DNA of 64,000 bases from contig QIAU01000137.1 of NCBI GenBank assembly GCA_003225055.1, positions 1 through 64,000 on the forward strand. Direction: 5' to 3'. Positions 4,452 through 33,555 of this stretch are shown one piece after another (within the stretch, counting starts at the first letter, position 1; each line of letters opens with the position of its first letter). Origin of the DNA: Acidobacteriota bacterium. GTDB taxonomy: Bacteria; Acidobacteriota; Terriglobia; Terriglobales; Acidobacteriaceae. The notes below the pieces were generated by a model, which was not told the DNA's origin, ran no database searches, and worked only from the letters and a program-made list of their open reading frames with translations. Both the position numbers and the translations under genes were made by a program.

Positions 4452-5281
4452 GATGCTCAACGGGAGGTTCAGGGGCGGAATCGCCAAGGTGAAAATCTCA
4501 GGGATAGCGTGTACACGCCAAACCTTCCCCACAAAGCTGCTTTGTTCTGTGGCAGGCGGGACCTCGCAGCCCTACCACCAGCAGCGCAAGTCTCCAGGGT
4601 ACGTGCACGAGCAAACCGCGCCTTTACGGCGCGCCCTTGACCGCTATGGGTCGTTCGGAAGAAAAACCCCCCGCCAAGAGGGAATGGCCCAGGATGAATC
4701 GGTTCCAACACTTACTTGTTCCATTCCAACGTGCCGCGCCAAGGAACCTGAGAAACCGACCTAAAAATAGCAGAACTGAATTTGAGAAAGTTCTGGCGAG
4801 AATCGTGAGACGTTACAATGTTCTTCAGGATTCGGAACATCCATGCGCGCTGAAACGACCCGAAACTGAGCAAAGCCTCGCATCGCAATCTGACGCGCCG
4901 GGCGATCCCACCCCGAAGATCCTTCTCGGTCTCCACCGCCCGTTTCCGGTCCGTCCTGCTCCGAATCCATCGCAACGGTCATGCGGCGCTCAGCACGCCT
5001 TCACCTACACAGTGCGCGAACTCTGGATCTGGAGTTCTTAACAAAGAACGCCGAGCGCGTGATGTTCGGCGTCTGCATCATCGCCCTCACCGGGCACTTG
5101 GGCGGTTTCTTGAGCGGCGTGAATGGACCTGGTTAGATGTCCTAGTGTTTCTCCATTTTGAGGAAGTCGGCATCGCTCAAGGGGAGTACAGAAAATTTTG
5201 CTCTCTCTTTAGATTTTGTTGGGAATAAAAGGGGCCCCGTATCAGTTATGAGTACAGAACGTTACAGATCACGGAGTGCAA
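4452..5281. other. Mostly empty region with one membrane-protein relic
   Basis: Frames here lack family similarity. The one meaningful stretch is the short frame at 4981-5136, listed separately. The ribosome binding site of the next gene (CGGAG) is at 5272-5276. Confidence 0.5.
4981..5136 (+). pseudogene. C-terminal relic of a membrane protein
   Basis: A 51-residue frame ending in a hydrophobic segment, VMFGVCIIALTGHLGGFLSG, then VNGPG and a stop. The helix with a GHLGG core resembles the last transmembrane segment of membrane-anchored cytochrome-type proteins, but this rests on memory of that motif only. The first 20 residues make no clear sense and no start signal is visible, so it is probably the end of a deleted gene. 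Confidence 0.35.
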
Positions 5282-6319
5282 ATGACAGACAAAAAGCAAA
5301 GTCTTATCGATCAGAATTTGCAAGACCTTAACAACGACGGCGTCGACCGCCGTGGATTTCTGAAGTGCATGGCATGGGCGGGCACCGGCTTGGTCTGGAC
5401 GATGAGCGGTGGCATCCCTGGGTCTCGGGCCTTCGCCAAGATCTATGGCAAGGATTCCGGCGATGGCGGGGACTTCAGCTTTGTGCAGATCAGCGACAGC
5501 CACATCGGCTTTAACAAACCGGCCAATCCGGACGTCATCGCGACTTTGCAAACAGCGATCAACAAGATCAATGCCATGCCGCACAAGCCCGATTTCATCA
5601 TTCACACCGGCGATCTGAGTCAGCTCTCGAAGCCGAGTGAATTCGACACGCTGGAACAGAAATTAAAAGGAGCCTCCGCGAAACAGATCTACTTTGTGCC
5701 CGGTGAGCATGACATGCTGACCGACAACGGCGAGCAATATCTCCAGCGCTTTGGGAAGGGCACAAAAGGCGCTGGGTGGTACAGCTTCGATCACCAGGGT
5801 GTGCATTTCGTCGGTCTCGTAAATGTAGCCAATTTGAAAGCTGGTGGCATGGGGTCACTCGGTCACGAGCAGTTGCAGTGGCTGGAGGACGATCTCAAGG
5901 GCCGCTCTGCCAGTAGTCCGATTGTGCTCTTTGCACACATTCCACTGTGGACTATCTATCCCGATTGGGGTTGGGGAACCGACGACAGTGAGCAAGCCTT
6001 GTCCTACGTCAAGCGTTTTGGTTCGGTGACTGTGTTGAACGGCCACATTCACCAGATCATGCAGAAGATCGAAGGTAAAGTTTCGTTCCACACCGCGATG
6101 TCGACCGCCTTCCCTCAGCCTGCGCCCGGAACAGCTCCCTCAGCCGGACCCATGAAGGTGCCGGCCGACCAGTTGCAGCGGGTTTTGGGTATCACCGATG
6201 TGAACTATCTCGTCAGCGGTCGCAGCCTCGCAATCGTCGACTCGCCACTCGGGGACCCGGTCTCATCGGCTTCAGGGAATGGACGTGGCCTGGTAGAAGT
6301 TGACCCGGTCGTTGGGTAG
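5282..6319 (+). CDS. Tat-exported calcineurin-like metallophosphoesterase
   Basis: About 345 residues. A Tat signal is present (DRRGFLKCMAWAGTGLVW, about residues 20-40), so the enzyme should act in the periplasm. The metal-binding motifs of the calcineurin-like phosphoesterase family occur in order: QISDSHIGF (D-x-H), HTGDLSQ (GD), GEHD (the family's usual GNHD with Glu for Asn), FAHIPLW and NGHIHQ (GHxH). The Asn-to-Glu change in the third motif is unusual. Substrate is unknown; the family cleaves phosphomono- or diesters. ATG at 5282 is preferred to the GTG at 5276 because GGAG lies at a good distance from it. The cupredoxin gene 71 bases downstream is probably cotranscribed. Confidence 0.85.
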   Translation: MTDKKQSLIDQNLQDLNNDGVDRRGFLKCMAWAGTGLVWTMSGGIPGSRAFAKIYGKDSGDGGDFSFVQISDSHIGFNKPANPDVIATLQTAINKINAMPHKPDFIIHTGDLSQLSKPSEFDTLEQKLKGASAKQIYFVPGEHDMLTDNGEQYLQRFGKGTKGAGWYSFDHQGVHFVGLVNVANLKAGGMGSLGHEQLQWLEDDLKGRSASSPIVLFAHIPLWTIYPDWGWGTDDSEQALSYVKRFGSVTVLNGHIHQIMQKIEGKVSFHTAMSTAFPQPAPGTAPSAGPMKVPADQLQRVLGITDVNYLVSGRSLAIVDSPLGDPVSSASGNGRGLVEVDPVVG

Positions 6320-6390
6320 ACCGGTAAAGATCCGGTCCAGACAAATGAAGATCAAGTAAGAAAATAAAACTAGAAAGAGGAAACAGAACA

Positions 6391-6747
6391 ATGACAACGA
6401 AAAATGTATGGATTGCAGGTTTGGCGGTGCCGGTCATGATCGCGATGCTGCTGCTAGCGGGATCACCGAGCGTCACGGCGAATGACCAGCCATCAGCGGC
6501 AAACGCAGAGGTAAAAATTGACAATTTCAGCTTTGGGCCGCAGACGCTGACGGTATCTGTCGGAACGACGGTCGTCTGGACCAACCGTGATGACATTCCC
6601 CATACGGTGGTCAGCACAGACGGCGTGTTCAAGTCCAAGGTTCGAGATACGGACGAAAAGTTCTCCTACACATTTACCAAGGCGGGAACATATCCCTATT
6701 TTTGTTCGGTCCACCCGAAGATGACGGGTAAGGTCGTAGTGCAGTGA
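6391..6747 (+). CDS. Exported cupredoxin (plastocyanin/amicyanin-like)
   Basis: 118 residues with a signal peptide (AVPVMIAMLLLAG, cleavage probably after VTANDQ). The rest is one cupredoxin domain. The copper ligands are visible: the first His in DIPHTVVS, then Cys and His in PYFCSVHPKMTG, with the final Met. This is a type-1 blue-copper electron carrier of the periplasm. Its ribosome binding site (AGAGG) is slightly far from the ATG. It follows the metallophosphoesterase, a pairing I have seen in other bacteria, but the functional link is not known. Confidence 0.85.
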   Translation: MTTKNVWIAGLAVPVMIAMLLLAGSPSVTANDQPSAANAEVKIDNFSFGPQTLTVSVGTTVVWTNRDDIPHTVVSTDGVFKSKVRDTDEKFSYTFTKAGTYPYFCSVHPKMTGKVVVQ

Positions 6748-20709: not shown

Positions 20710-21017
20710 CTATGGCGGTATCGCTTGCCCTTCGATGTAGCGTTTGATCACGTCGAGCGGTGCGCCGCCACAGGATGCGGCCAGGTAAGAAGGCGACGAC
20801 AGTACATTCTTCCGGTAGTTGGCGATAGGAGGCAACTGGCGTCCTAGAAGGTAGCTCGAAGCGCCCTTTAAGGAGTTCACCAGCGATGAGACAGTTGCAA
20901 TTTCTCAACAGCCTCGCGGTCGAGGATACAGCAGCGGTATTTGGTTACCAAGACCAGATGAATATGCATTCGAAACACGCGGTGTCTACCGTGCCGAAGG
21001 TCCTTGCTTTTGTCCAT
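20710..21017 (-). pseudogene. tnpA: IS200/IS605 tnpA with central deletion
   Basis: The start is clear on the minus strand (KDLRHGRHRVFRMHIHLVLV, then TKYR), and the C-terminal end is also clear (NYRKNVLSSPSYLAASCGG, then PLDVIKRYIEGQ with the catalytic Tyr). They are joined in different frames at LVNSLKGASS, and roughly 45 residues are missing. The lost part contains the His-hydrophobic-His metal motif of Y1 transposases. The first frame stops after SHRW. The product cannot cut DNA. Confidence 0.75.
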
Positions 21018-21038
21018 ACACCAGATCATCATGCCCGC

Positions 21039-22121
21039 ATGGAACGTCGGCAAGCGTTCCGATTCGAGTTGATGCCTAACGGCGAACCGCAACGGCGGAT
21101 GAGCCGTTTGGCGGGTTGTGCCCGTTACGTCTACAACCAGGCGTTGGCGCTCAAGCAAGAGCGATACGAGAAGAAAGAGAAGCTCACCCGCTTCCAACTG
21201 GACAAGCTGCTGGTAGAGAAGGGCATAGGGGATTCCCTCCGAGAGTCGGACCCGAGGTGTATCAAACTAGACCAAGTCAACCGCCGCATTCAGTTGCCCA
21301 AGCTGGGTTGGGTGCGTTATCGCAACAGCCGTGAGGTGCTGGGGGAGATTCCGAGTGCCACGGTCAGCTTATCGGCTGGCCAATGGTTCGTCAGTATCAG
21401 CACGCGGCGCGAAGTCGAGCCGCCGGTGCATCCTTCCAGATCGTCGGTCGGTCTGGATTGGGGAGTGGCTCGTTTCTATACCCTGTCCGACGGTGAGTAC
21501 CAAGACCAGTTGCAGCCGCTTAAACGGTTCTTGCCGAAGCTGGCGAAACTCGAACGACGGCTAGCTGGTAAGAAAAAGTTCTCCGGCAACTGGAAGAAGG
21601 CGAAAGCCAAAATCACCAAGTTGCACAGCAAGATTACCCATATCAGAAAGGACTTCGTACATAAGGCTTCGAACGACATCAGCAAAAACCACGCCGTCGT
21701 GTTTGTCGAAGACCTTCCAGGAAAGAATATGTCTACGTCCGCCCAGGGCACGAAGGCAAAGCCGGGGAAGGGGGTTCGCCAGAAGTCGGGACTCAACCGT
21801 TCTATTCTGGACGCAAGCCGGTTCGAGTTGCGCCGCCAGCTGGCGTACAAGACGCAGTGGAACGGCGTTCTTCTCGTACCCGTGCCGCCCCAGAACACCA
21901 GCCGCAGGTGTCCTCGGTGCCGGCACACCTCAACGGAGAACCGCCAGACGCAAGCCAAGTTCGTGTGCGTCAAGTGCGGCTTCTCAGCCCCTGCGGATTG
22001 GGTTGCTGCTATCAACATCAAAGAGGCGGGACTCGCCTCGTTAGCCTGTTCGTCGTCTTGGCATGCTCGAAGTGCGTCGTGTCAGGAACCCACCGAGGAC
22101 ATGGTATGCGCGAGCGTATAG
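21039..22121 (+). CDS. tnpB: TnpB RNA-guided nuclease of IS605, shortened
   Basis: About 360 residues, where relatives I know have about 400. RuvC-like catalytic parts are present: Asp in SVGLDWGVARF, Glu in VVFVEDLP, and Asp in SAPADWVAAINI. The zinc ribbon is complete (CPRC, then CVKC). Between LTRFQLDKLL and IGDSLRESDP about 40 residues of the helical region appear deleted. TnpB is guided by an RNA from the right end of the element and cuts the empty donor site; whether this shortened form works is open. ATG at 21039 is chosen because TnpB-like sequence begins there. tnpA starts 21 bases away on the other strand. Confidence 0.8.
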   Translation: MERRQAFRFELMPNGEPQRRMSRLAGCARYVYNQALALKQERYEKKEKLTRFQLDKLLVEKGIGDSLRESDPRCIKLDQVNRRIQLPKLGWVRYRNSREVLGEIPSATVSLSAGQWFVSISTRREVEPPVHPSRSSVGLDWGVARFYTLSDGEYQDQLQPLKRFLPKLAKLERRLAGKKKFSGNWKKAKAKITKLHSKITHIRKDFVHKASNDISKNHAVVFVEDLPGKNMSTSAQGTKAKPGKGVRQKSGLNRSILDASRFELRRQLAYKTQWNGVLLVPVPPQNTSRRCPRCRHTSTENRQTQAKFVCVKCGFSAPADWVAAINIKEAGLASLACSSSWHARSASCQEPTEDMVCASV

Positions 22122-24437: not shown

Positions 24438-25444
24438 TCAGTTTCTAATCGGTCCTGTCACATTATTCATGACCAGGTTGGAGAAAATCATGTTCTCAAA
24501 GCGCGATCCGGGGCCGCAGCACATTTTGATCGGAGAACCAAAGGTTTGAGTGGTCAGGCAATCGGAAACCGTGATGTTCTCTGCGACTCCGCCGCCATAG
24601 GGGAAGACAGACCAGCGAGTGCTAAAAGTACAATTCGAGAGTGTCACAAACCTGCAACTGCCGAACAGTGCGCAGGCGTCATCCTGGCAGATAACATCAC
24701 AGTTGCTGATATGCACGTATTCGCAGTTGATGAAATGGAATCCGTCGTTATTGTGGTTCACCCGGTTGTGAATGTCGAGACCTTCCATTTTTACAAAGCT
24801 CGATTGGATGACCCGGATAGAATGAACTCGCCTCCAGAGTGATGTCACGCACGAAAAGATTTTTGCAACGATAAAACAGAAGATGGTAGGGGCGTTGGCT
24901 TCCACCCCGTCCCGAGGGCGTTTGAACGCCGCGTAGCGGGCTGCGAAACTGCGCGCCTTGGCCATCAATTCTTCCTGGTCCCCGGAGAGCGGTGTTTTCA
25001 CCGCTAACAGCGAAAATCAGTGCGACGTTGCCGTCGTTGAGCATCGAATTGCCAGTGAGCGGGATGGCGTCGGCCGCGTGGTATTGGCTGCCCTTTGCGC
25101 TTCCCAGCAACGTGGCAGAAGCCGCCAGGTGCAGAGTCACGTTGCTCTTCAATTCGTTAGTGCCAATAACGTAGGTGCCCGAGGATACAAGAACTGCTTC
25201 GCCTCGATCGCTGGGACACGTGTCGGTCGCTTTTGCAGCGCCGCGGTGTCGAGCGTGGTCCCATCGCCCCTGGCTCGAAATCGCGAACGTTGTAAGTGCG
25301 GGCGCCCGGTATCGTGATCACCAACAGATTTGTGGTTGTGGGCGACGGCTGTGCGGGCGAACAGCTCGATCCCACGGAGGCAGCCGTGGCAGCGGCGCCC
25401 AGCCACCTGCGTCGAGAAATAACGGCATCGTTGCCAGTCTTCAT
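24438..25444 (-). pseudogene. Broken GH28 (polygalacturonase-like) gene
   Basis: Three or more frames are needed. The start reads a Tat-like signal (ISRRRWLGAAATAASVG), then TYNVRDFEPGAMG. It shifts to GDGTTLDTAALQK near 25240, to LKSNVTLHLAASATLLGSA near 25150, and to VKMEGLDIHNRVNHNNDGFH with ICQDDACALFGS from about 24990. These are parallel-beta-helix GH28 motifs (NxDG, DDA). The gene ends early after NVTGPIRN, losing the usual last third. The intact GH28 gene 31 bases upstream looks like its paralogue. Confidence 0.8.
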
Positions 25445-25475: not shown

Positions 25476-27119
25476 TCAAGACCGAGGAGGTAACTCCTGG
25501 AACTGAACTTTATCGAGATCGGTATCCTTCACCTCTCTACTGCCAAGCACCCTGAAGTTCGTCACATCGTTGAGGTGAAACACCGGAGCACCGGCGGTTC
25601 TGGGCGACTTGACGCGGAAGTAATCCGCACCATCGACGTCGCTGAGCCAGAAAGCGGGCCTGAGGTCGGGTTTCTCAGTTGCGACTTCAACATTGGAGAA
25701 CTCGACGTTCTTCGAGTGGCGAAGGAAGAACCCGGTAGCAGGCAGTGGCCCGAACATGGTTGGCTCGGGATAGGCATCTTCTTTTTCCGGTGGTTGCAGG
25801 CTGGCCATCTCCCGTGTGCCACCGCCGCGTTGGTGAAGATAGATGTTGCTGATCTTCAGGTCTTCGATGAGGTGGCCGGGTACTCCGCTGATGATGGAGC
25901 AGAGTTCCGGAAGCGCCCCGCAGCTGGTGACATTGCTGATGAGGATGCGCTTCATGCTACCGACGGCGGCGTCCTTCGGACCCCGCATACGTGTTCCAAG
26001 GCGAAGGAACATAGGGGAGCTGGTCAGATCGCGCATGGTAATTCCGACGAAGCTAAGGTCTTCACACAAAGCCCCATCCACTGCTTCCAACGCGAGTCCG
26101 CGGCATCCATCGAAAACACAATTCGAGACCGTGATGTTCTTGAATCCCCCGTTTGACTCCGTGCCGAACTTGATGCGTCCGGTGTTGTGGTTTTTGAATT
26201 CGGGACCAAACTTCTTGAAGCTTCCATCCAGCATCGTGCCGAGTTCATAGTTGCCTGTCACATAGCAATTCGTGATGGTGACATTCTCCGTAGCTCGCGC
26301 GTAGCCAAGGGCAAATGAGCTCTTTGCACAGATTCCATCGTCCCATGGCGAATTGACGCTGCAATTTGAAACGCGAACATTCTTACAGCAGTCGATGTCC
26401 ATGCCATCACGATTGGTGTCGATCTTGAGGTTGTCGACAGTGAGGTTGTCGACGCCGGTGGCGAGAATCGCGAACCAGCCGCCCTGGAGGATAGAGAAGT
26501 CGCGAAGAATAACGTTGTGACAATTTTTCAGGGCGATTGCTTTGTTTCCCACGCCGGGGTTCTTGGTCGAGGGCAAGTCCTTATCGCGCCCCAGCCCTCG
26601 GCTTAAGCCCCTTCCCCAAATCAATCCTGGGCCGACGATCGCAACGTCGTGCAGGTTTTCACCCCACATCAGACTGTTGTGCCAGTGATTATGGCCGAAG
26701 TCTTGGTACATTTCCCACGGACCTTGCGGCTCCGCTGGATCGTATCCATCCCTTGTGCCTTCGAGCGGAACGGCAGCGGCGAGGATGACTGCTCCGGAGT
26801 CGAGGTAAAGGCCGACATGACTCTTGAGATGAAGCGAATAACTGGCATAGATACCCGCGGGGAACAGTACGGTTCCTCCACCGGTAGCGGCGGCAGCATC
26901 AATTGCACTATTTATGGCGGCCGTATCGATGGTTTTACCGTCTCCTTTGGCGCCATACTTGCGAACATCGAATGTGCTGCTCTGGCCGACGCCGGAAGCC
27001 GAGGGAGCCACCTGCTCTCCCGCTTCGCGGCCCAAGGCTCCTGCGGTTGTCACGGCGGTTAAGCCCGCCCCTGCCAGCCTCAGAAAGTCTCTACGGCGAC
27101 CCATGCCTTGCCCATCCAT
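25476..27119 (-). CDS. Tat-exported GH28 polygalacturonase-like hydrolase
   Basis: 547 residues. Tat signal (RRRDFLRLAGAGLTAVT). Pectate-lyase-3-type start (FDVRKYGAKGDGKTIDTAAI), then right-handed beta-helix with GH28 active-site motifs in slightly altered form: TNRDGMDID (for NTDG), SPWDDGICAKSS (for DDC-AIKSG) and GRIKFGTESNGG (RIK). It should cleave alpha-1,4-linked galacturonic acid or a related pectic bond in the periplasm or outside. ATG 27119 is supported by AGGAGG upstream. In the minus-strand operon between GH29 and the broken GH28 copy. Confidence 0.9.
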   Translation of the reverse strand: MDGQGMGRRRDFLRLAGAGLTAVTTAGALGREAGEQVAPSASGVGQSSTFDVRKYGAKGDGKTIDTAAINSAIDAAAATGGGTVLFPAGIYASYSLHLKSHVGLYLDSGAVILAAAVPLEGTRDGYDPAEPQGPWEMYQDFGHNHWHNSLMWGENLHDVAIVGPGLIWGRGLSRGLGRDKDLPSTKNPGVGNKAIALKNCHNVILRDFSILQGGWFAILATGVDNLTVDNLKIDTNRDGMDIDCCKNVRVSNCSVNSPWDDGICAKSSFALGYARATENVTITNCYVTGNYELGTMLDGSFKKFGPEFKNHNTGRIKFGTESNGGFKNITVSNCVFDGCRGLALEAVDGALCEDLSFVGITMRDLTSSPMFLRLGTRMRGPKDAAVGSMKRILISNVTSCGALPELCSIISGVPGHLIEDLKISNIYLHQRGGGTREMASLQPPEKEDAYPEPTMFGPLPATGFFLRHSKNVEFSNVEVATEKPDLRPAFWLSDVDGADYFRVKSPRTAGAPVFHLNDVTNFRVLGSREVKDTDLDKVQFQELPPRS

Positions 27120-27229: not shown

Positions 27230-28576
27230 TCAGATTCCGTCGCGCGGCTTTTCCTTGCGCACCAAGATGCTGTCCTGCGTTGGCTCTGATTCGCATTCGA
27301 TGGCGATCGTGGCGACGGGATGGTCCGGAGCTTCAACGGGCAATCCGGTGAACCGGACGCGGAACTTGTCCTGCTGGACTTGGACTTTTCTGTCCGAAGC
27401 CAGCAAACGGGCCCCTTTAACTCCCGTCATGAGGCCGCTCAGGGCGACGGTTTCACCCGGCCAGAAGTGCACGTGCATGTAAAGCGTGTTGCCCTTGCGG
27501 GTAAAGCTGGCGTAATTGCTGCGGCGGACCTGGCACGGATCGGAGCCGTATATGGTCGGTCCGTTTCGATCCATCCAGTGGCCGACTTCGGAGAGAATAC
27601 GCACTGATTCTTCGGGAATGGATCCGTCCGGCTTGGGGCCGATATTCAAAAGATAGTTGCCGGTGTCGCGAGTGCAGGCGACCAGGTTGCGAATCACCTG
27701 TTTCGGAGTCTTCCAGGCATCGTCGGCACGCTGGTATCCCCAGCTGTCGTTCAGCGTCATGCAGGTTTCCCATGCGCGACCGTTGGTCTCGGCAGTGATG
27801 TGTTGCTCAGGAGTGGAAAAGTCTCCGGGGAGTTTGTTCCGATTGTTGACGATGATGTCCGGCTGTAATTCGAAGACCATCTTGTTCATGCGCTCAGACT
27901 CCCACTGATCAGCGCTGAGCGGCCAAGCTACGTCATACCAGAGAACATCAACCTTACCGTAGTTGGTCATCAGCTCGCGTATGAGGCCATGTGTGTACTC
28001 GACGAAGCGTTTGCGAGCGTCTTCATCCTGAGCACAGCGGGCACCATCAGGATGATGCCAATCCATTAGCGAATAGTAGAAGCCCACCCGCAGACCTTCG
28101 GAACGGGCGGCCTCGACATACTCGGCAACCAAGTCGCGACCCGGGCCCTGCTTGGGTGCGCAGTAGTCGGTGAGCTTCGTATTGAAGTTGCAGAACCCCT
28201 CGTGATGTTTGGTAGTCATCACCATGTATTTCTGCCCCGCTTGCTTGGCGAGCCTTGCCCAAGCGCGCGCCGCGTGAGGTGTCGGTTGAAATTTCTTGGC
28301 CAGAGGAGCGTATTCACTCACCGGAATTCCTTCGTTCTCCATTACCCACTCGTGCCGCCCGAGAACACTGTAAAGACCCCAATGGACGAACATGCCGAAC
28401 CGTGCTTCGTGCCACCATTGCATACGCCGGGCGCGATCAGCGTCCTGGGGGGCAGAAGCGGGAGGCTGTGCCGGCTGTGGCGCCTGTGTTTGCGCTGTCC
28501 GAGGCGTTAACGCGCCGGCGGCAAGCAAGGAGGCCGAACTTTTGAGCCACGTACGGCGAGTAAAGAGATTATTCAT
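27230..28576 (-). CDS. GH29 alpha-L-fucosidase
   Basis: 448 residues. Tat-like signal (RRTWLKSSASLLAAGAL). The GH29 TIM barrel shows MQWWHEARFGMFVHWGLYS, QKYMVMTTKHHEGFCNF, GFYYSLMDWHHP, KVDVLWYDVAWP (nucleophile Asp) and NYLLNIGPKPDGSIP. A short C-terminal beta domain follows. It releases alpha-linked L-fucose from glycans outside the cytoplasm. The operon around it carries the genes to oxidise L-fucose, which supports the specificity. Confidence 0.93.
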   Translation of the reverse strand: MNNLFTRRTWLKSSASLLAAGALTPRTAQTQAPQPAQPPASAPQDADRARRMQWWHEARFGMFVHWGLYSVLGRHEWVMENEGIPVSEYAPLAKKFQPTPHAARAWARLAKQAGQKYMVMTTKHHEGFCNFNTKLTDYCAPKQGPGRDLVAEYVEAARSEGLRVGFYYSLMDWHHPDGARCAQDEDARKRFVEYTHGLIRELMTNYGKVDVLWYDVAWPLSADQWESERMNKMVFELQPDIIVNNRNKLPGDFSTPEQHITAETNGRAWETCMTLNDSWGYQRADDAWKTPKQVIRNLVACTRDTGNYLLNIGPKPDGSIPEESVRILSEVGHWMDRNGPTIYGSDPCQVRRSNYASFTRKGNTLYMHVHFWPGETVALSGLMTGVKGARLLASDRKVQVQQDKFRVRFTGLPVEAPDHPVATIAIECESEPTQDSILVRKEKPRDGI

Positions 28577-28606: not shown

Positions 28607-28942
28607 TTAAGGCGCGAGTTTGAAAATTTTGTCCATCAGCATGCACTTTTCTCCGGGCTTGGCCTGTGGAAGCGGCCGTTGGAATTTCCACATCAACTGC
28701 TCCCACTCCTGCACCCTGGGATTTTTGCGGTCAGCCTGCGCTTTCTGGTCAAAGCTGAAGCGGTCGTTGGCTTCGATAATCATGAAGAGCCGAGTACCGA
28801 GAAGATAGATTTCGAGGTCCTCAATGCCGGAGTCTCGAAGGCTCTGGAGTATCTCGGGCCAAACGTTTTCATGATGCCGCTTGTATTCACGAATGAGCTG
28901 CGGATCGTCGGCGAGATCGAGCGCGAGACAGTAACGTTTCAT
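28607..28942 (-). CDS. L-rhamnose/L-fucose mutarotase (RhaM family)
   Basis: 111 residues, cytoplasmic. Family signature: RYCLALDLADDPQLIREYKRHH, VWPEIL, and MWKFQRPLP. RhaM-type proteins interconvert alpha and beta anomers of 6-deoxy sugars. In this L-fucose context it probably supplies the beta-anomer to L-fucose dehydrogenase. The ATG overlaps the stop codon of the upstream gene (ATGA), so it is translationally coupled to it. Confidence 0.9.
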   Translation of the reverse strand: MKRYCLALDLADDPQLIREYKRHHENVWPEILQSLRDSGIEDLEIYLLGTRLFMIIEANDRFSFDQKAQADRKNPRVQEWEQLMWKFQRPLPQAKPGEKCMLMDKIFKLAP

Positions 28943-30192
28943 CGGGCTTCGACTCCCAACCTGACCGTTCCGCCTGCCTGTTCAACAGTAACGGGGCGAT
29001 ATCCACGCAATGCGAAGTACAAGACGTACACATAGCAGGCCAGCGGAACGATGAAAGCTCGCTGAATACTGCTCGCATCGAAGATGTAGCCTATGAGAGC
29101 GGGAATCATTGCGCCGCCAATAATCGACATCACCAGCAGGGAAGAGCCGCGTTTGGTGTAGCTGCCCAGTCCCTTTACGCTCAGAGCAAAAATCGTTGGG
29201 AGCATAATGGAATGGAAGAAGCCGATGAAGACGAGGGCCCAGATGGGAGCAAGCCCGGAGGTACTGATAACCACCAGAAGGGAAATGAGAGCTCCGGCAG
29301 CAAAGATCAAAAGCAGGCGCGGCGCGGCAATGACCTTCATTACGGCGGATCCGGCGAAGCGTTCGATCATGAATCCGAGTAAATGGAATTTCAGATAATT
29401 TGCCGCCAATTTCTCGGAAGTGCCGGGTGAAGTGTGCTGCACAAAAACGACGAAAACATGCTGTCCTGTGATGTGGCTCGTCTTATCCGAAATGAGAAAA
29501 GCTGCCATGGCAGAGATTTCTGCGGCCGTGGTCATGCGTTTTCCGAGCGGAATCTTGGAGACCGTTTCCTGAAGTTTCTGCTCAGGATTTTGGAATGTGC
29601 TGAGCCACTGCTGATAGAGGGGCGTCATGACCTCAGCCGGAGCAATCGCGCTCACTCGAATCCCACAAGGGAGCAGTTCAACGGCCCACTCGCGGGTGAG
29701 GGCGAGAATCGCGCCTTTAGCAGACGCGCATCCAGAAGTTCCGCCCCGGCCTGTAAGAGCTGTCTTGGATGCGATATTAAGAATGCAGGCTGGCGAATTT
29801 CTTAAGGCGGACAAAGCAAAATGCGCCATTTCGTAATAGTGAAGAAGATTGCGTCGCAGCGACGCGCAGTAGCCTTCGGGCGATGCGTGCTCGAGTCCGA
29901 CCTTGTCGTTTACCCCGGCGTTATTGACGAGCGCATCGATCTGCTTAAAAGCTTCAAGGGTTCGGGCCACAGCCTCACGCGAGCGCGGCGCATCGGCGAG
30001 TTCCAGTGCAATATGTTTCGCTTGGGCTCCCTGCCGGAGGAGTTTACATTCGAGCTCCTGCCCTGAGTTCTGGTCCTTGTCGACGATAACGGGGATGGCG
30101 CCTTCTTCCGCGACGGTTCTGCCAATCTGAGCCCCGATGCCTTTGGCCCCGCCAGTTATGGGTACAACCTTGTCTTTCAGGGTGAGGTCCAT
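28939..30192 (-). CDS. Chimera: L-fucose-dehydrogenase-like SDR fused to the C-terminal half of a FucP-type permease
   Basis: 417 residues in one open frame. Residues 1-248 are an SDR (KDKVVPITGGAKGIGAQIG, ALVNNAGVNDK, ILNIASKTALTG, up to ITGQHVFV) resembling L-fucose dehydrogenases. Directly after VFV the sequence is the second half of an L-fucose:H+ symporter (FVQHTSPGTSEKLAANYLKF, HLLGFMIERF, then about five membrane helices). The SDR end (normally DGGY...), the intergenic space and the permease's first six helices are missing, so one in-frame deletion made the fusion at about 29450. In the SDR active site, YxxxK is changed: GCASAKGA has Cys in place of Tyr. Both halves are therefore probably dead. 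RhaM remains coupled to its stop codon. Confidence 0.8.
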   Translation of the reverse strand: MDLTLKDKVVPITGGAKGIGAQIGRTVAEEGAIPVIVDKDQNSGQELECKLLRQGAQAKHIALELADAPRSREAVARTLEAFKQIDALVNNAGVNDKVGLEHASPEGYCASLRRNLLHYYEMAHFALSALRNSPACILNIASKTALTGRGGTSGCASAKGAILALTREWAVELLPCGIRVSAIAPAEVMTPLYQQWLSTFQNPEQKLQETVSKIPLGKRMTTAAEISAMAAFLISDKTSHITGQHVFVVFVQHTSPGTSEKLAANYLKFHLLGFMIERFAGSAVMKVIAAPRLLLIFAAGALISLLVVISTSGLAPIWALVFIGFFHSIMLPTIFALSVKGLGSYTKRGSSLLVMSIIGGAMIPALIGYIFDASSIQRAFIVPLACYVYVLYFALRGYRPVTVEQAGGTVRLGVEAR

Positions 30193-30205: not shown

Positions 30206-31033
30206 CTAAAGTCCGTAAAAACGCGCTGCGTTTAGACCAAAAATGTTGGCCCGATCGGTTTCGGAAAACGATTCCGCATAGCTGCTGATTAAATCGACCA
30301 CCCGTGAGTAACTTCCCGCTAGCAGGCAGACTGGCCAATCCGACCCGAACATCACACGGTAGACCCCGAATGCGTCGAAGACGATGTCGAGATAGGGCAC
30401 GATGTCCTGGTCCGACCAGTTCTGCCAGTCGGCTTCCGTGATCAGGCCAGAGATTTTGCAATACACGTTTTGATGTTTTGCAATTTCGCGGATGTGTTGG
30501 CGCCAAGGGGATATCTTCTTATTTCTAATTTCAGGTTTGGCTATGTGGTCAACGACAAAGAGCTGGTCGGGAAACTTGGCTACCAATTCCGCTGCAGCAG
30601 GGAGTTGGCGTGCATAAACCAAAATGTCGTAGGTAAGACCGAAATGGCCCAGCCAGGAAATACCGCGGACGAATGCTTCGCGGAGCAGGAAGCGGTCGTC
30701 GGGTTCAGCCTGCACAATATGACGAATTCCGCGAAGCTTTCTGCAATTAGCGTAGACTTGCAATGATTCGTGGACGCCGGGAGAGCAGAGGTCCACCCAG
30801 CCTACGACGCCGAGAATCTGTGGAAATTTTGAAGCTAAATCCAGCAGAAATCTGGTCTCGGCCTCCGATTGGTCGGCTTGTACAGCGATAGAACCATCTA
30901 TGTTGTGGGATTCGAGTTCGGGGATTAGGTCGTGAGGCAAGAAATCACGATGCAGCACAGCCATGTTGTCCGTGATCCAGCTGTCACGAGTCCGATTAAA
31001 CTTCCAAAAATGCTGATGAGAGTCGATTCTCAT
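30206..31033 (-). CDS. Amidohydrolase, probable L-fuconolactonase
   Basis: About 275 residues. Amidohydrolase-2 TIM barrel: MRIDSHQHFWKF with the HxH-type start, DGSIAVQADQSEAETRFLLDLA, VGWVDLCSP, LRGIRHIVQAEPD, FVVDHIAKPEIR, NVYCKISGLITEADW, and VMFGSDWPVC. This matches lactonases of L-fucose and L-rhamnose breakdown. It would hydrolyse L-fucono-1,5-lactone to L-fuconate, the step after L-fucose dehydrogenase. Start at the ATG of MRIDSH because family members begin there. Thirteen bases separate it from the next gene in the operon. Confidence 0.88.
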   Translation of the reverse strand: MRIDSHQHFWKFNRTRDSWITDNMAVLHRDFLPHDLIPELESHNIDGSIAVQADQSEAETRFLLDLASKFPQILGVVGWVDLCSPGVHESLQVYANCRKLRGIRHIVQAEPDDRFLLREAFVRGISWLGHFGLTYDILVYARQLPAAAELVAKFPDQLFVVDHIAKPEIRNKKISPWRQHIREIAKHQNVYCKISGLITEADWQNWSDQDIVPYLDIVFDAFGVYRVMFGSDWPVCLLAGSYSRVVDLISSYAESFSETDRANIFGLNAARFYGL

Positions 31034-31082
31034 GCGAAAAGGTTCGGTGTCCCCACATCGATCGCGAACCAAAATAGTTCAA

Positions 31083-31915
31083 TCAGCGGATGTTAATGAA
31101 TCCGCCATTAATCGGATAATCCACCCCGGTGATGAACGAGGCTTCGTCCGAACATAAGAACAGCGCGAGCAATGCCACCTCGCGAGGTTCAGCTATTCGC
31201 CCGATAGGCTGCGATTGCGAGAGCCTGCCGATGATCTCGCGCTCGCGGCCGGGATAGTTTTGTTCGACAAATCCGGCCACACAAGGGCGTGAACACTCGT
31301 GCCGGCGAGATGCAGTTACAACGTATGTTGTGACTGATATAGTCACGTGCAACGGAATAGGTCATGGCCAGAACGGCGCCCTTGCCCATCGAATAGGCAA
31401 AGCGGTCGGGCAGTCCCGCCGAACTGGCAATCGACGCCATATTCAGAACTACTCCCGTCCGCCGCTTCTTCATTGCCGGCAGCGCCGCGGACAGACAGTT
31501 GTATACGCCTTTCACGTTCACCCTATAAATACGGTCGAAGTCCTCGTCCGACGTGCCCTCGAGGTTGCCTACTTTGTGCAATTCCTGCATTATTCACGAG
31601 AATGTCGATGGGCGACTCGCGCAGCATCTCCTGAAACGCTTGACGCACTTCCGAGTGAGAGGGGACGTCGCAGCGGCGGGCACTGGCCGAACCTCTGCCC
31701 TTCGCCATCGAGGCGGAAACCTGCTCGGCTCAATCGAGGTCCGGATCGATGAGTCTGACGCAGGCCCCATGGCCAGCAAACGTTTCTGCAATCGCTCGCC
31801 CGATTCCACTTGCACCGCCGGTAATCACAGCGACCTTGCCGTGAAGACGAAATAAGCCGTTATCTATGGATACGGTCAGTATGGATACGGTCAGAGGGAT
31901 ACTCCTCTCTTCCAC
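31083..31915 (-). pseudogene. Broken SDR, probably 2-keto-3-deoxy-L-fuconate dehydrogenase
   Basis: At least three frames make one SDR: LHGKVAVITGGASGIGRAIA (31900-31740) ending in a stop after DPDLD; then ASARRCDVPSHSEVRQAF with IDILVNNAGIA; then VGNLEGTSDEDFDRIYRVN, NMASIASSAG and RFAYSMGKGA (Tyr-Lys kept); and, after a last shift near 31280, QPIGRIAEPREVALLALFLC with GGFINIR at the end. The position in the fucose operon, between the UxaA-type dehydratase and the lactonase, suggests it once oxidised 2-keto-3-deoxy-L-fuconate. Confidence 0.8.
31865..31894. repeat. 15-bp tandem duplication at a gene junction
   Basis: TATGGATACGGTCAG occurs twice head to tail (31865-31879, 31880-31894), exactly over the stop codon of the UxaA-type gene and the start of the broken SDR. 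It adds the residues LTVSI twice in the SDR frame. It looks like a recent slippage event. Confidence 0.85.
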
Positions 31916-33555
31916 GGAATGAAATCGTCCTGGTCGAGCCTTTCGGCTTTAGTTTTCACCTGACCGCTCGCTACGCGAAGCATGAGGTCGAGCAGAGCCT
32001 CGGACGACTCCTCCGCCGTGGATTGGCCGGAGATGATGGGGCCGCAATCGAAATCGATGATGTCAGGCATGCGCTGGGCCAGTGCAGTATTGCTCGAAAT
32101 CTTGATGACCGGAGCGATTGGATTCCCGGTTGGAGTTCCCAAACCCGTGGTAAACAGGACGATGTTGGCGCCGGAACCTACCTGTGCAGTTACTGCCTCC
32201 ACGTCATTACCTGGAGTACAAAGCAAATTAAGACCGGACTGGGTTGCGTATTCGGGATAGTCAAGAACGGCGGTGATAGGCGACGCCCCTCCTTTCCTGG
32301 CAGCGCCTGCCGATTTCATCGCGTCGGTGACGAGGCCATCGCGGATGTTTCCCGGCGATGGATTCATGTCGAAACCGGAACCGACGGCCTGTGCGCGGGA
32401 ATTGTAGGCCGTCATCAGCGACAGGAAACGATCAGCAGCTTCGTCAGAAATACAACGATTCACCAACTCCTGCTCAACGCCGCACAACTCAGGGAACTCG
32501 GACAGAATCGTTCGTCCGCCCATCGCTGCCAATTTGTCCGAAACCTGGCCCAAAGTCGGATTGGCGGAGATCCCCGAGAAACCGTCAGACCCGCCGCACT
32601 TTAAGCCGACAGTGAGGGATGTCAAAGAAGCAGAAGTCCGCTGCGCCTCATTGGCCCCTACCAATCCGAGAAAAGTTTCCTCTATCGCCTGCGACAACAG
32701 CTTTGACTCGGTTCCGAGCCGCTGTTGTTCGAGGACTACCACCTGCTTGCCGGTGCGAGGATCGCGCTTTGCCAATTCCTCACGCAGAATTTCGGTCTGA
32801 GCGTTTTGGCAGCCAAGGCTGAGAACGGTTGCACCCGCGACATTTGGATGATGGATGTATCCGGCCAATAACCCACACAGGGTGCGGGCATCGTCGCGGG
32901 TTCCACCACAACCACCCTGGTGAGTCAGGAACTTAATGCCGTCCACATTTGGGAACACACTCGATGACGGGGACGACTCCAAGGTTTCCTGCACTTGAGA
33001 GCCGACAATCCGGCCCGAATGCCCCTCCTGGTATAGCTGCACAAGCCGCTTCACCATTGCCCGATATTTCTGGGGTGGCGCGAAACCGAGCTCTTCGACA
33101 AACGCCTGCCGCATGGTGTCAATGTTGCGGTTCTCGCAGAACACGAGGGGAATCACAATCCAGTAATTTCTTGTGCCAACTTGACCGTCTTCGCGGTAGT
33201 ATCCCGACCACCGTTTTTTGCGCCAGCGGCCGACCTCGGGAGCAACCCAGGGGGAAGAGGCGGTTCGCGGCTTGACCGCCATCGAGTCGTGCCGCGTGTT
33301 GAGGGTGGTAATCGGTTCGCCTGCAGCAATCGGCTTCCGTGCCCTACCGACCGGGATTCCATACATGACGATTGGAGCGCCTGCAGCCAAGTCTCGGGTT
33401 GTCACTTTGTGCTTAGGCGGGACGTCAGACACCAATGTAAATGTGCCCGCGCTGTCCGCAATCTGTTCACCGGCCCGCAAAGGCACAAGCGCCACGAGCA
33501 CGTTGTCATCCGGGTGGATCTTCAAGACTCTCTCCGCGATGGATTCCGCTTTCAT
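31891..33555 (-). CDS. UxaA-family dehydratase (altronate dehydratase-like)
   Basis: 554 residues. An N-terminal SAF domain (about 1-95, VLKIHPDDNVLVALVPLRAGE) is joined to the dehydratase domain: GYYREDGQVGTRNYWIVIP, FLTHQGGCGG (metal or Fe-S Cys), VLSLGCQNAQ, VGLKCGGSDGFSGISANP and LNLLCTPGNDVEAVTAQ. UxaA removes water from D-altronate. As no enolase-type L-fuconate dehydratase is seen in this fucose operon, this protein may do that step; this is inference. Full length and intact. Upstream at 33574-33588 there is a small dyad, GTTTC-AACCG-GAAAC. Confidence 0.88.
   Translation of the reverse strand: MKAESIAERVLKIHPDDNVLVALVPLRAGEQIADSAGTFTLVSDVPPKHKVTTRDLAAGAPIVMYGIPVGRARKPIAAGEPITTLNTRHDSMAVKPRTASSPWVAPEVGRWRKKRWSGYYREDGQVGTRNYWIVIPLVFCENRNIDTMRQAFVEELGFAPPQKYRAMVKRLVQLYQEGHSGRIVGSQVQETLESSPSSSVFPNVDGIKFLTHQGGCGGTRDDARTLCGLLAGYIHHPNVAGATVLSLGCQNAQTEILREELAKRDPRTGKQVVVLEQQRLGTESKLLSQAIEETFLGLVGANEAQRTSASLTSLTVGLKCGGSDGFSGISANPTLGQVSDKLAAMGGRTILSEFPELCGVEQELVNRCISDEAADRFLSLMTAYNSRAQAVGSGFDMNPSPGNIRDGLVTDAMKSAGAARKGGASPITAVLDYPEYATQSGLNLLCTPGNDVEAVTAQVGSGANIVLFTTGLGTPTGNPIAPVIKISSNTALAQRMPDIIDFDCGPIISGQSTAEESSEALLDLMLRVASGQVKTKAERLDQDDFIPWKRGVSL

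Follow-up and report, generated by a model that had tools for sequence, protein, structure and literature searches.

An open frame of 417 codons in the window, a stretch of 64,000 nucleotides of DNA from an Acidobacteriota bacterium, is with a probability of about 0.85 a fusion pseudogene in a decaying and partly redundant L-fucose operon. The ancestral operon would have encoded a UxaA-type dehydratase, a second SDR (SDR2), a lactonase, an L-fucose dehydrogenase of the SDR family (FucosDh), the L-fucose symporter FucP, the mutarotase RhaM and a fucosidase. Comparison with relatives shows that a deletion of about 850 bp took away the last ~12 codons of FucosDh, the gap between the genes and the front half of fucP with almost the whole of TM7, leaving the two frames joined in phase. 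The catalytic Tyr of the dehydrogenase has become Cys and other invariant residues have changed, a decay that would be tolerated through other L-fucose genes present on two further contigs of the genome (C238 and C154), which presumably act as substitutes. That the frame is still open would be due to its in-phase join and to the short time elapsed.

Parts of the fused frame

The fused frame, its parts and the genes around it lie on the reverse strand, as follows:
27230-28576, minus strand: GH29 alpha-L-fucosidase, open frame at the 3' end of the cluster (Pfam Alpha_L_fucos, 302.9 bits)
28607-28942, minus strand: rhaM-type mutarotase (Pfam rhaM, 108.3 bits; ATGA overlap with the fused frame)
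28939-30192, minus strand: fused open reading frame, 417 aa (list of open reading frames, family matches and homologues of each half)
28939-29448, minus strand: FucP remnant, end of TM7 and TM8-12 (TIGR01272 match, hydropathy)
29443-29451, minus strand: putative deletion junction, GTC GTT TTT, residues 248-250 (compared with the loci of 18 relatives)
29449-30192, minus strand: FucosDh (SDR) part, residues 1-248 (NF052481 match, alignment with 8 relatives)
29728-29730, minus strand: Cys155 codon TGC replacing the catalytic Tyr (Tyr in the compared homologues)
30206-31072, minus strand: L-fucono-1,5-lactonase-like amidohydrolase, apparently intact (NF052480, 298.5 bits)
31083-31855, minus strand: second SDR (SDR2), pseudogene (three tblastn pieces in three frames)
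31891-33555, minus strand: UxaA/galactarate-type dehydratase, open frame (Pfam GD_AH_C, 319.7 bits)

The frame starts with ATG, runs through its 417 codons without internal stops and places an L-fucose dehydrogenase-like SDR (residues 1-248) in front of the C-terminal part of a FucP (residues ~250-417). The first of these passes the curated cut-off of the NCBIfam model FucosDh, NF052481 (337.7 bits over residues 1-248, cut-off 300), and the best sequence match of the fusion in the PDB is 4gkb (1.2e-75). It belongs to the same NF052481 family as the bacterial L-fucose dehydrogenases 4gkb/4gvx of Burkholderia multivorans and FucX (6drr) of C. jejuni, from which it differs in having Cys for the catalytic Tyr, no C-terminal tail and added transporter helices. 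The last SDR residue is V248, beyond which all 8 aligned relatives go on, the full-length enzyme having a C-terminal V-D-G-G-Y-x-H-L-D-R; about 12 C-terminal residues, D-G-G-Y-V-H-L-D-R-A-L-T in relatives, are missing from the fusion.

The gluP-type MFS model TIGR01272 matches the second part with its positions 164-310 (fusion residues 248-393; 114.6 bits, below the whole-protein cut-off of 202.55), and this part is 61% identical across 155 C-terminal residues to the FucP of a same-family locus, L039. Where a FucP has twelve helices, a hydropathy scan gave five hydrophobic segments beyond residue 270, a method that undercounts, with just 10 segments in the intact FucP of L039. Compared with the L-fucose:H+ symporter FucP (TIGR00885), the remnant shares the C-terminal part, whereas TM1-6 and almost the whole of TM7 have gone. 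The original prediction of an in-frame fusion of an SDR with a fucose permease is therefore borne out by a single 417-residue frame matching both NF052481 and TIGR01272, although less than the proposed half of the permease is left.

Comparison with related loci

In the related loci FucosDh and fucP are separate, adjacent genes on the same strand, with the SDR first. The gene order of L039 (genome G019, same family) is that of the window, from the UxaA-type dehydratase through the second SDR, lactonase, FucosDh, fucP and rhaM to the fucosidase, and both genes of interest score there above their curated cut-offs (fucP 367.5 with TIGR00885, cut-off 280.4; SDR 404.9 with FucosDh, cut-off 300). The two genes are also separate in G001, the only other genome of the genus examined. 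Measured from the end of the F-V of the SDR to the F/L codon in the I-R-F/L of fucP, the join points lie 844-870 bp apart in relatives (14 of the 18 loci gave both points) and 3 bp apart in the window, so that a deletion of about 850 bp, which would have fused FucosDh to the tail of fucP, is supported.

A closer look at the join shows the codons TTC GTC GTT TTT GTG, at points where the SDR genes of relatives encode F-V-D-G-G and their fucP genes F-V/I-I-R-F/L. Since the I-R of fucP is missing, the shared F-V is not a simple crossover point, and the alignment is compatible with a microhomology of at most 1-2 bases, at a breakpoint whose exact position cannot be fixed at the divergence of these relatives (~60-65% protein identity). 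In this regard, the deletion put forward originally agrees with the separate genes found in the same order in relatives and with the ~850 bp gone from the window, but its placement between short similar sequences is weakly supported, as the join falls outside the F-V and the relatives allow at most 1-2 shared bases. Fusion pseudogenes arising from deletions between neighbouring operon genes are a known kind in bacteria. The present case resembles them in its adjacent same-strand genes, its one deletion and the presence of another dead gene in the operon; it differs from them in that the frame remains open and still overlaps the next gene.

The fusion was also sought beyond these loci. Among 398 genomes of the family, a query with the FucosDh fusion found a match at 1e-40 in 136, and among the matches listed (with up to 4 candidates scored in each genome, a fused relative being expected near the top) only the row of the window itself spans both halves. 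One row there (G383) covers query residues 1-271 with stops inside. Nor was the fusion seen in the genus (2 genomes) or in a set of 61 genomes (its own and 60 relatives), where a row reaching into the second half (G016, query residues 5-319, 30% identity, two stops) proved to be an unrelated SDR that no transporter follows, and the occurrence of relatives with the same fusion, which the original prediction had named as evidence against itself, thus found no example in the genus, the 61 genomes or the listed family matches. A limited literature search of open-licence papers returned no title on an SDR-FucP fusion.

Two other genes of these relatives show lesions of their own. The FucosDh of G001 (L038:2137-2877) seems frameshifted near residue 205, with its Tyr kept, which could be decay or an error in a fragmented assembly. 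In L039, the fucosidase at 4675-5352 lacks ~190 internal residues within a single open frame, the third in-frame internal deletion among such genes.

Replacements at invariant positions

The active-site motif of the fusion reads T-S-G-C-A-S-A-K, with Cys155 at the position of the catalytic Tyr, and the SDR part retains Ser142, Lys159, Asn115 and its glycine motif. Tyr occupies position 155 in each of 38 homologues from relatives (37 from the same family, one from the same order) and in all 20 named homologues with an identity of at least 45%, which confirms the loss of the catalytic residue; a conserved alternative active site, whose existence would have spoken against the original prediction, was looked for as well, and no close homologue has a replacement of the Tyr. 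Of the 78 weaker SDR matches (identity under 45%), Tyr fills that column in 65, and the 13 remaining ones include rows shifted by one through a gap and atypical SDRs. The single weaker row printed with Cys (L130) is of the former kind, an alignment gap moving its Tyr by one. According to PMC11293516, the Tyr154Phe variant of rabbit HSD17B14, an SDR L-fucose dehydrogenase, is inactive.

A different feature of the motif was observed in 11 of the 20 close FucosDh homologues (L086, L089, L090, L091, L093, L094, L095, L096, L098, L100 and L101), which carry Asn at the catalytic Lys of Tyr-x-x-x-Lys and keep the Asn, Ser and Tyr; the window keeps Lys159 at this position. In most of these homologues the match lies near 6001-6744, their records are named as Bacteroidota or Planctomycetota groups, and a lactonase homologue adjoins the SDR in 7 of the 11. 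A conserved Tyr-x-x-x-Asn SDR could merit attention.

To count replacements, a column was called invariant when identical in all other sequences. Beside the window, the sets held 38 SDR, 19 MFS, 11 rhaM, 13 lactonase and 7 UxaA sequences, after removal of 16 repeated or truncated loci and omission of matches with less than 80% coverage or under the identity limits; the SDR set includes the FucosDh of G001 (L038, apparently frameshifted after residue 205) and one sequence of another family (L051). The SDR part breaks 6 of 53 invariant columns (G103A, G135A, Q149R, Y155C, N181S and A227S) and the transporter part 3 of 42 (Gly277Glu, Met367Ile and Ser371Phe, fusion numbering). With a median of 0 broken columns in both comparison sets and maxima of 7 for the SDRs (L018, a distant homologue) and 3 for the MFS proteins (L044, equal to the window), the counts of the window are, in these alignments, unusual and not unique; at a conservation level of 95%, it breaks 8 of 78 SDR columns and L018 breaks 10.

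Branch length by itself does not account for the excess in the SDR part, because the lactonase, with a terminal branch as long (0.518 versus 0.479), breaks none of its 67 invariant columns (median of the others, 1). Coming from one strain whose nearest relatives are ~60-65% identical, these counts suggest relaxed constraint on the fusion. With its catalytic Tyr changed to Cys and other invariants altered, the SDR part is not expected to oxidise L-fucose, nor the transporter part to act as a transporter. This carries a warning for annotation, as the frame exceeds the curated cut-off for "L-fucose dehydrogenase" though it is very probably inactive.

The open frame within a probably decaying operon

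It speaks against a pseudogene that 417 codons are free of stops and frameshifts, next door to an SDR2 with three lesions and fewer broken invariants. Separate adjacent ancestral genes and the loss of needed residues, both expected of a fusion pseudogene, were found; a broken reading frame was not. The open frame had originally been called remarkable for a dead gene, a judgement that a simple calculation does not support well. Random single-base changes in the fused frame yield 0.040-0.048 nonsense per missense changes, the replacement of 9 of 95 invariants corresponds to ~42 missense and ~1.8 nonsense changes expected, and the chance of having none of the latter is ~0.16, or 0.10 and 0.07 at preset ratios of 0.055 and 0.065, all of them values that exclude small insertions and deletions, which would lower them. 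Moreover, about one third of deletions join in phase, and a frame that has stayed open is the kind to catch a reader's eye, so that openness is less remarkable than it seems.

Selection might still hold open the frame of a useless protein, if a stop or frameshift uncoupled or silenced rhaM and the fucosidase, a reading that we consider unlikely. In line with it, the TGA stop of the fusion overlaps the ATG of rhaM as ATGA at 28939-28942, as originally noted, and no stop has appeared in the 417 codons despite the 9 replaced invariants. SDR2, a gene with no overlap with the next one downstream, has three lesions in ~244 codons (TGA at 31730-31732 and frameshifts near 31576 and 31284); its combination of more frame lesions with fewer replaced invariants (2 of 41) leaves a small opening for frame selection. 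However, selection is not needed when the chance of no nonsense change is ~0.16, and coupling would not be essential, because fucP and rhaM do not overlap in the related locus L045. The rhaM gene itself, with 2 of 34 invariant sites changed (Trp100Cys and Glu65Asp; 12 sequences), may be relaxing as well. As fucP overlaps rhaM by ATGA also in L039 and L040, the overlap is ancestral, inherited from fucP, and is therefore no evidence of a new role.

Very improbable is a working membrane-tethered pseudoenzyme, catalytically dead and perhaps a sensor or scaffold, in which the SDR would fold and bind L-fucose or NAD(P) ahead of five helices, with the frame kept open and co-translated with rhaM. In its favour, FucX alone confers L-fucose chemotaxis on a C. 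jejuni strain, according to PMC6946681. An AlphaFold model of residues 2-417 (mean pLDDT 83.7, pTM 0.63) shows an SDR fold followed by helices that span model residues 257-395. Its mean pLDDT is at least 90 in 17 of the first 25 ten-residue blocks, and its best fold matches in the PDB are 4gkb and 6drr, both L-fucose dehydrogenase SDRs; the retained Ser142, Lys159, Asn115 and glycine motif fit such a protein as well. But a folded model is no demonstration of function, and in this one the join is poorly defined, with a pLDDT below 50 over model residues 251-255, and the value drops to 72 in the block that holds the active-site loop (141-150). Given the topology of MFS proteins, the loss of TM7 behind a cytoplasmic domain means that the remaining five helices would have to insert inverted. 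Both halves have replaced invariants, one of which (Gly277Glu) lies within a helix, and no relative with the fusion was found in the genomes searched. The membrane-anchored sugar-binding protein suggested earlier has no positive support. An assembly or sequencing artefact hiding separate intact genes is hardly credible, even in a draft of 301 contigs, because the two join points resemble each other in only a few bases, which makes a false collapse unlikely. The change of the Tyr, ~280 bases from the join, is an independent one, and the window has many other long open frames.

The fusion pseudogene would be tolerated because the genome has a further FucP, an L-fuconate dehydratase homologue, a Zn-type dehydrogenase and an open SDR2. 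Contig C238 carries the FucP (411 bits with TIGR00885, cut-off 280.4) and the dehydratase homologue (PDB 1yey, 1.1e-107), along with the Zn-type dehydrogenase, a rhaM-like gene and GH29 fucosidases; the Zn-type enzyme exceeds no curated cut-off, and that it substitutes for FucosDh is a guess from its position. The open copy of SDR2 lies on C154 (L170:2415-3233) and is 67.6% identical to that of L039. No intact FucosDh was found elsewhere in the 301 contigs of the genome. Its second FucosDh, on C215 (L047:6757-7332), is a relic as well, missing ~93 internal residues in frame, among them the greater part of the cofactor-binding region (the profile is matched over 108-257 of 257). The search of the genome for an L-fucose isomerase gave nothing over the cut-off, with one weak match of 23.1 bits (cut-off 28) to the N-terminal domain only. 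A group II intron maturase gene lies near the C215 FucosDh (L047:4046-5626, 339 bits, cut-off 300).

Redundancy alone does not force decay, since, among the matches listed, five relatives (G010, G134, G305, G076 and G283) have both an unbroken FucosDh match and a relative of the C238 dehydratase (74-79%); G001 has no match to that dehydratase, yet its FucosDh looks frameshifted. The operon can even exist without FucosDh, because G030 (L045) has an otherwise equal operon in which the fucP frame directly follows the lactonase (L045:7458-7462 and around), and no FucosDh was found elsewhere in that genome at 1e-40 among the matches listed.

The other genes of the cluster are in varied condition. 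The lactonase is the only NF052480 match in the genome and, like its relative in L039 (314.1 bits), scores below the cut-off of 400. The UxaA-type dehydratase, 66% identical across 546 aa to that of L045, breaks 18 of 227 invariants, the most among only 8 sequences, a set too small to read anything into. The fucosidase, for which a single relative was usable, is 78% identical to that of L045. Beyond the cluster, overlapping short frames at 24438-25444, of which 24438-25001 (minus strand) matches GH28 with 44 bits, look like the remains of a GH28-type gene, next to which lies an open frame of broadly similar type (25476-27119). An IS605-type OrfB/TnpB gene lies at 20829-22121, a few kb from the decaying region.

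Altogether, the fused frame is most likely a product of ordinary gene decay; nothing found points to a new function, and its open reading frame can be due to chance. It would capture one stage of the loss of a pathway, in which both dehydrogenases and the transporter of the operon are broken and the lactonase has no broken invariants. Because this lactonase, the sole match to its family in the genome, stands unbroken among broken dehydrogenases and transporter, the pattern suggests an operon undergoing piecewise loss or replacement by genes elsewhere, with the parts that have no substitute being kept.
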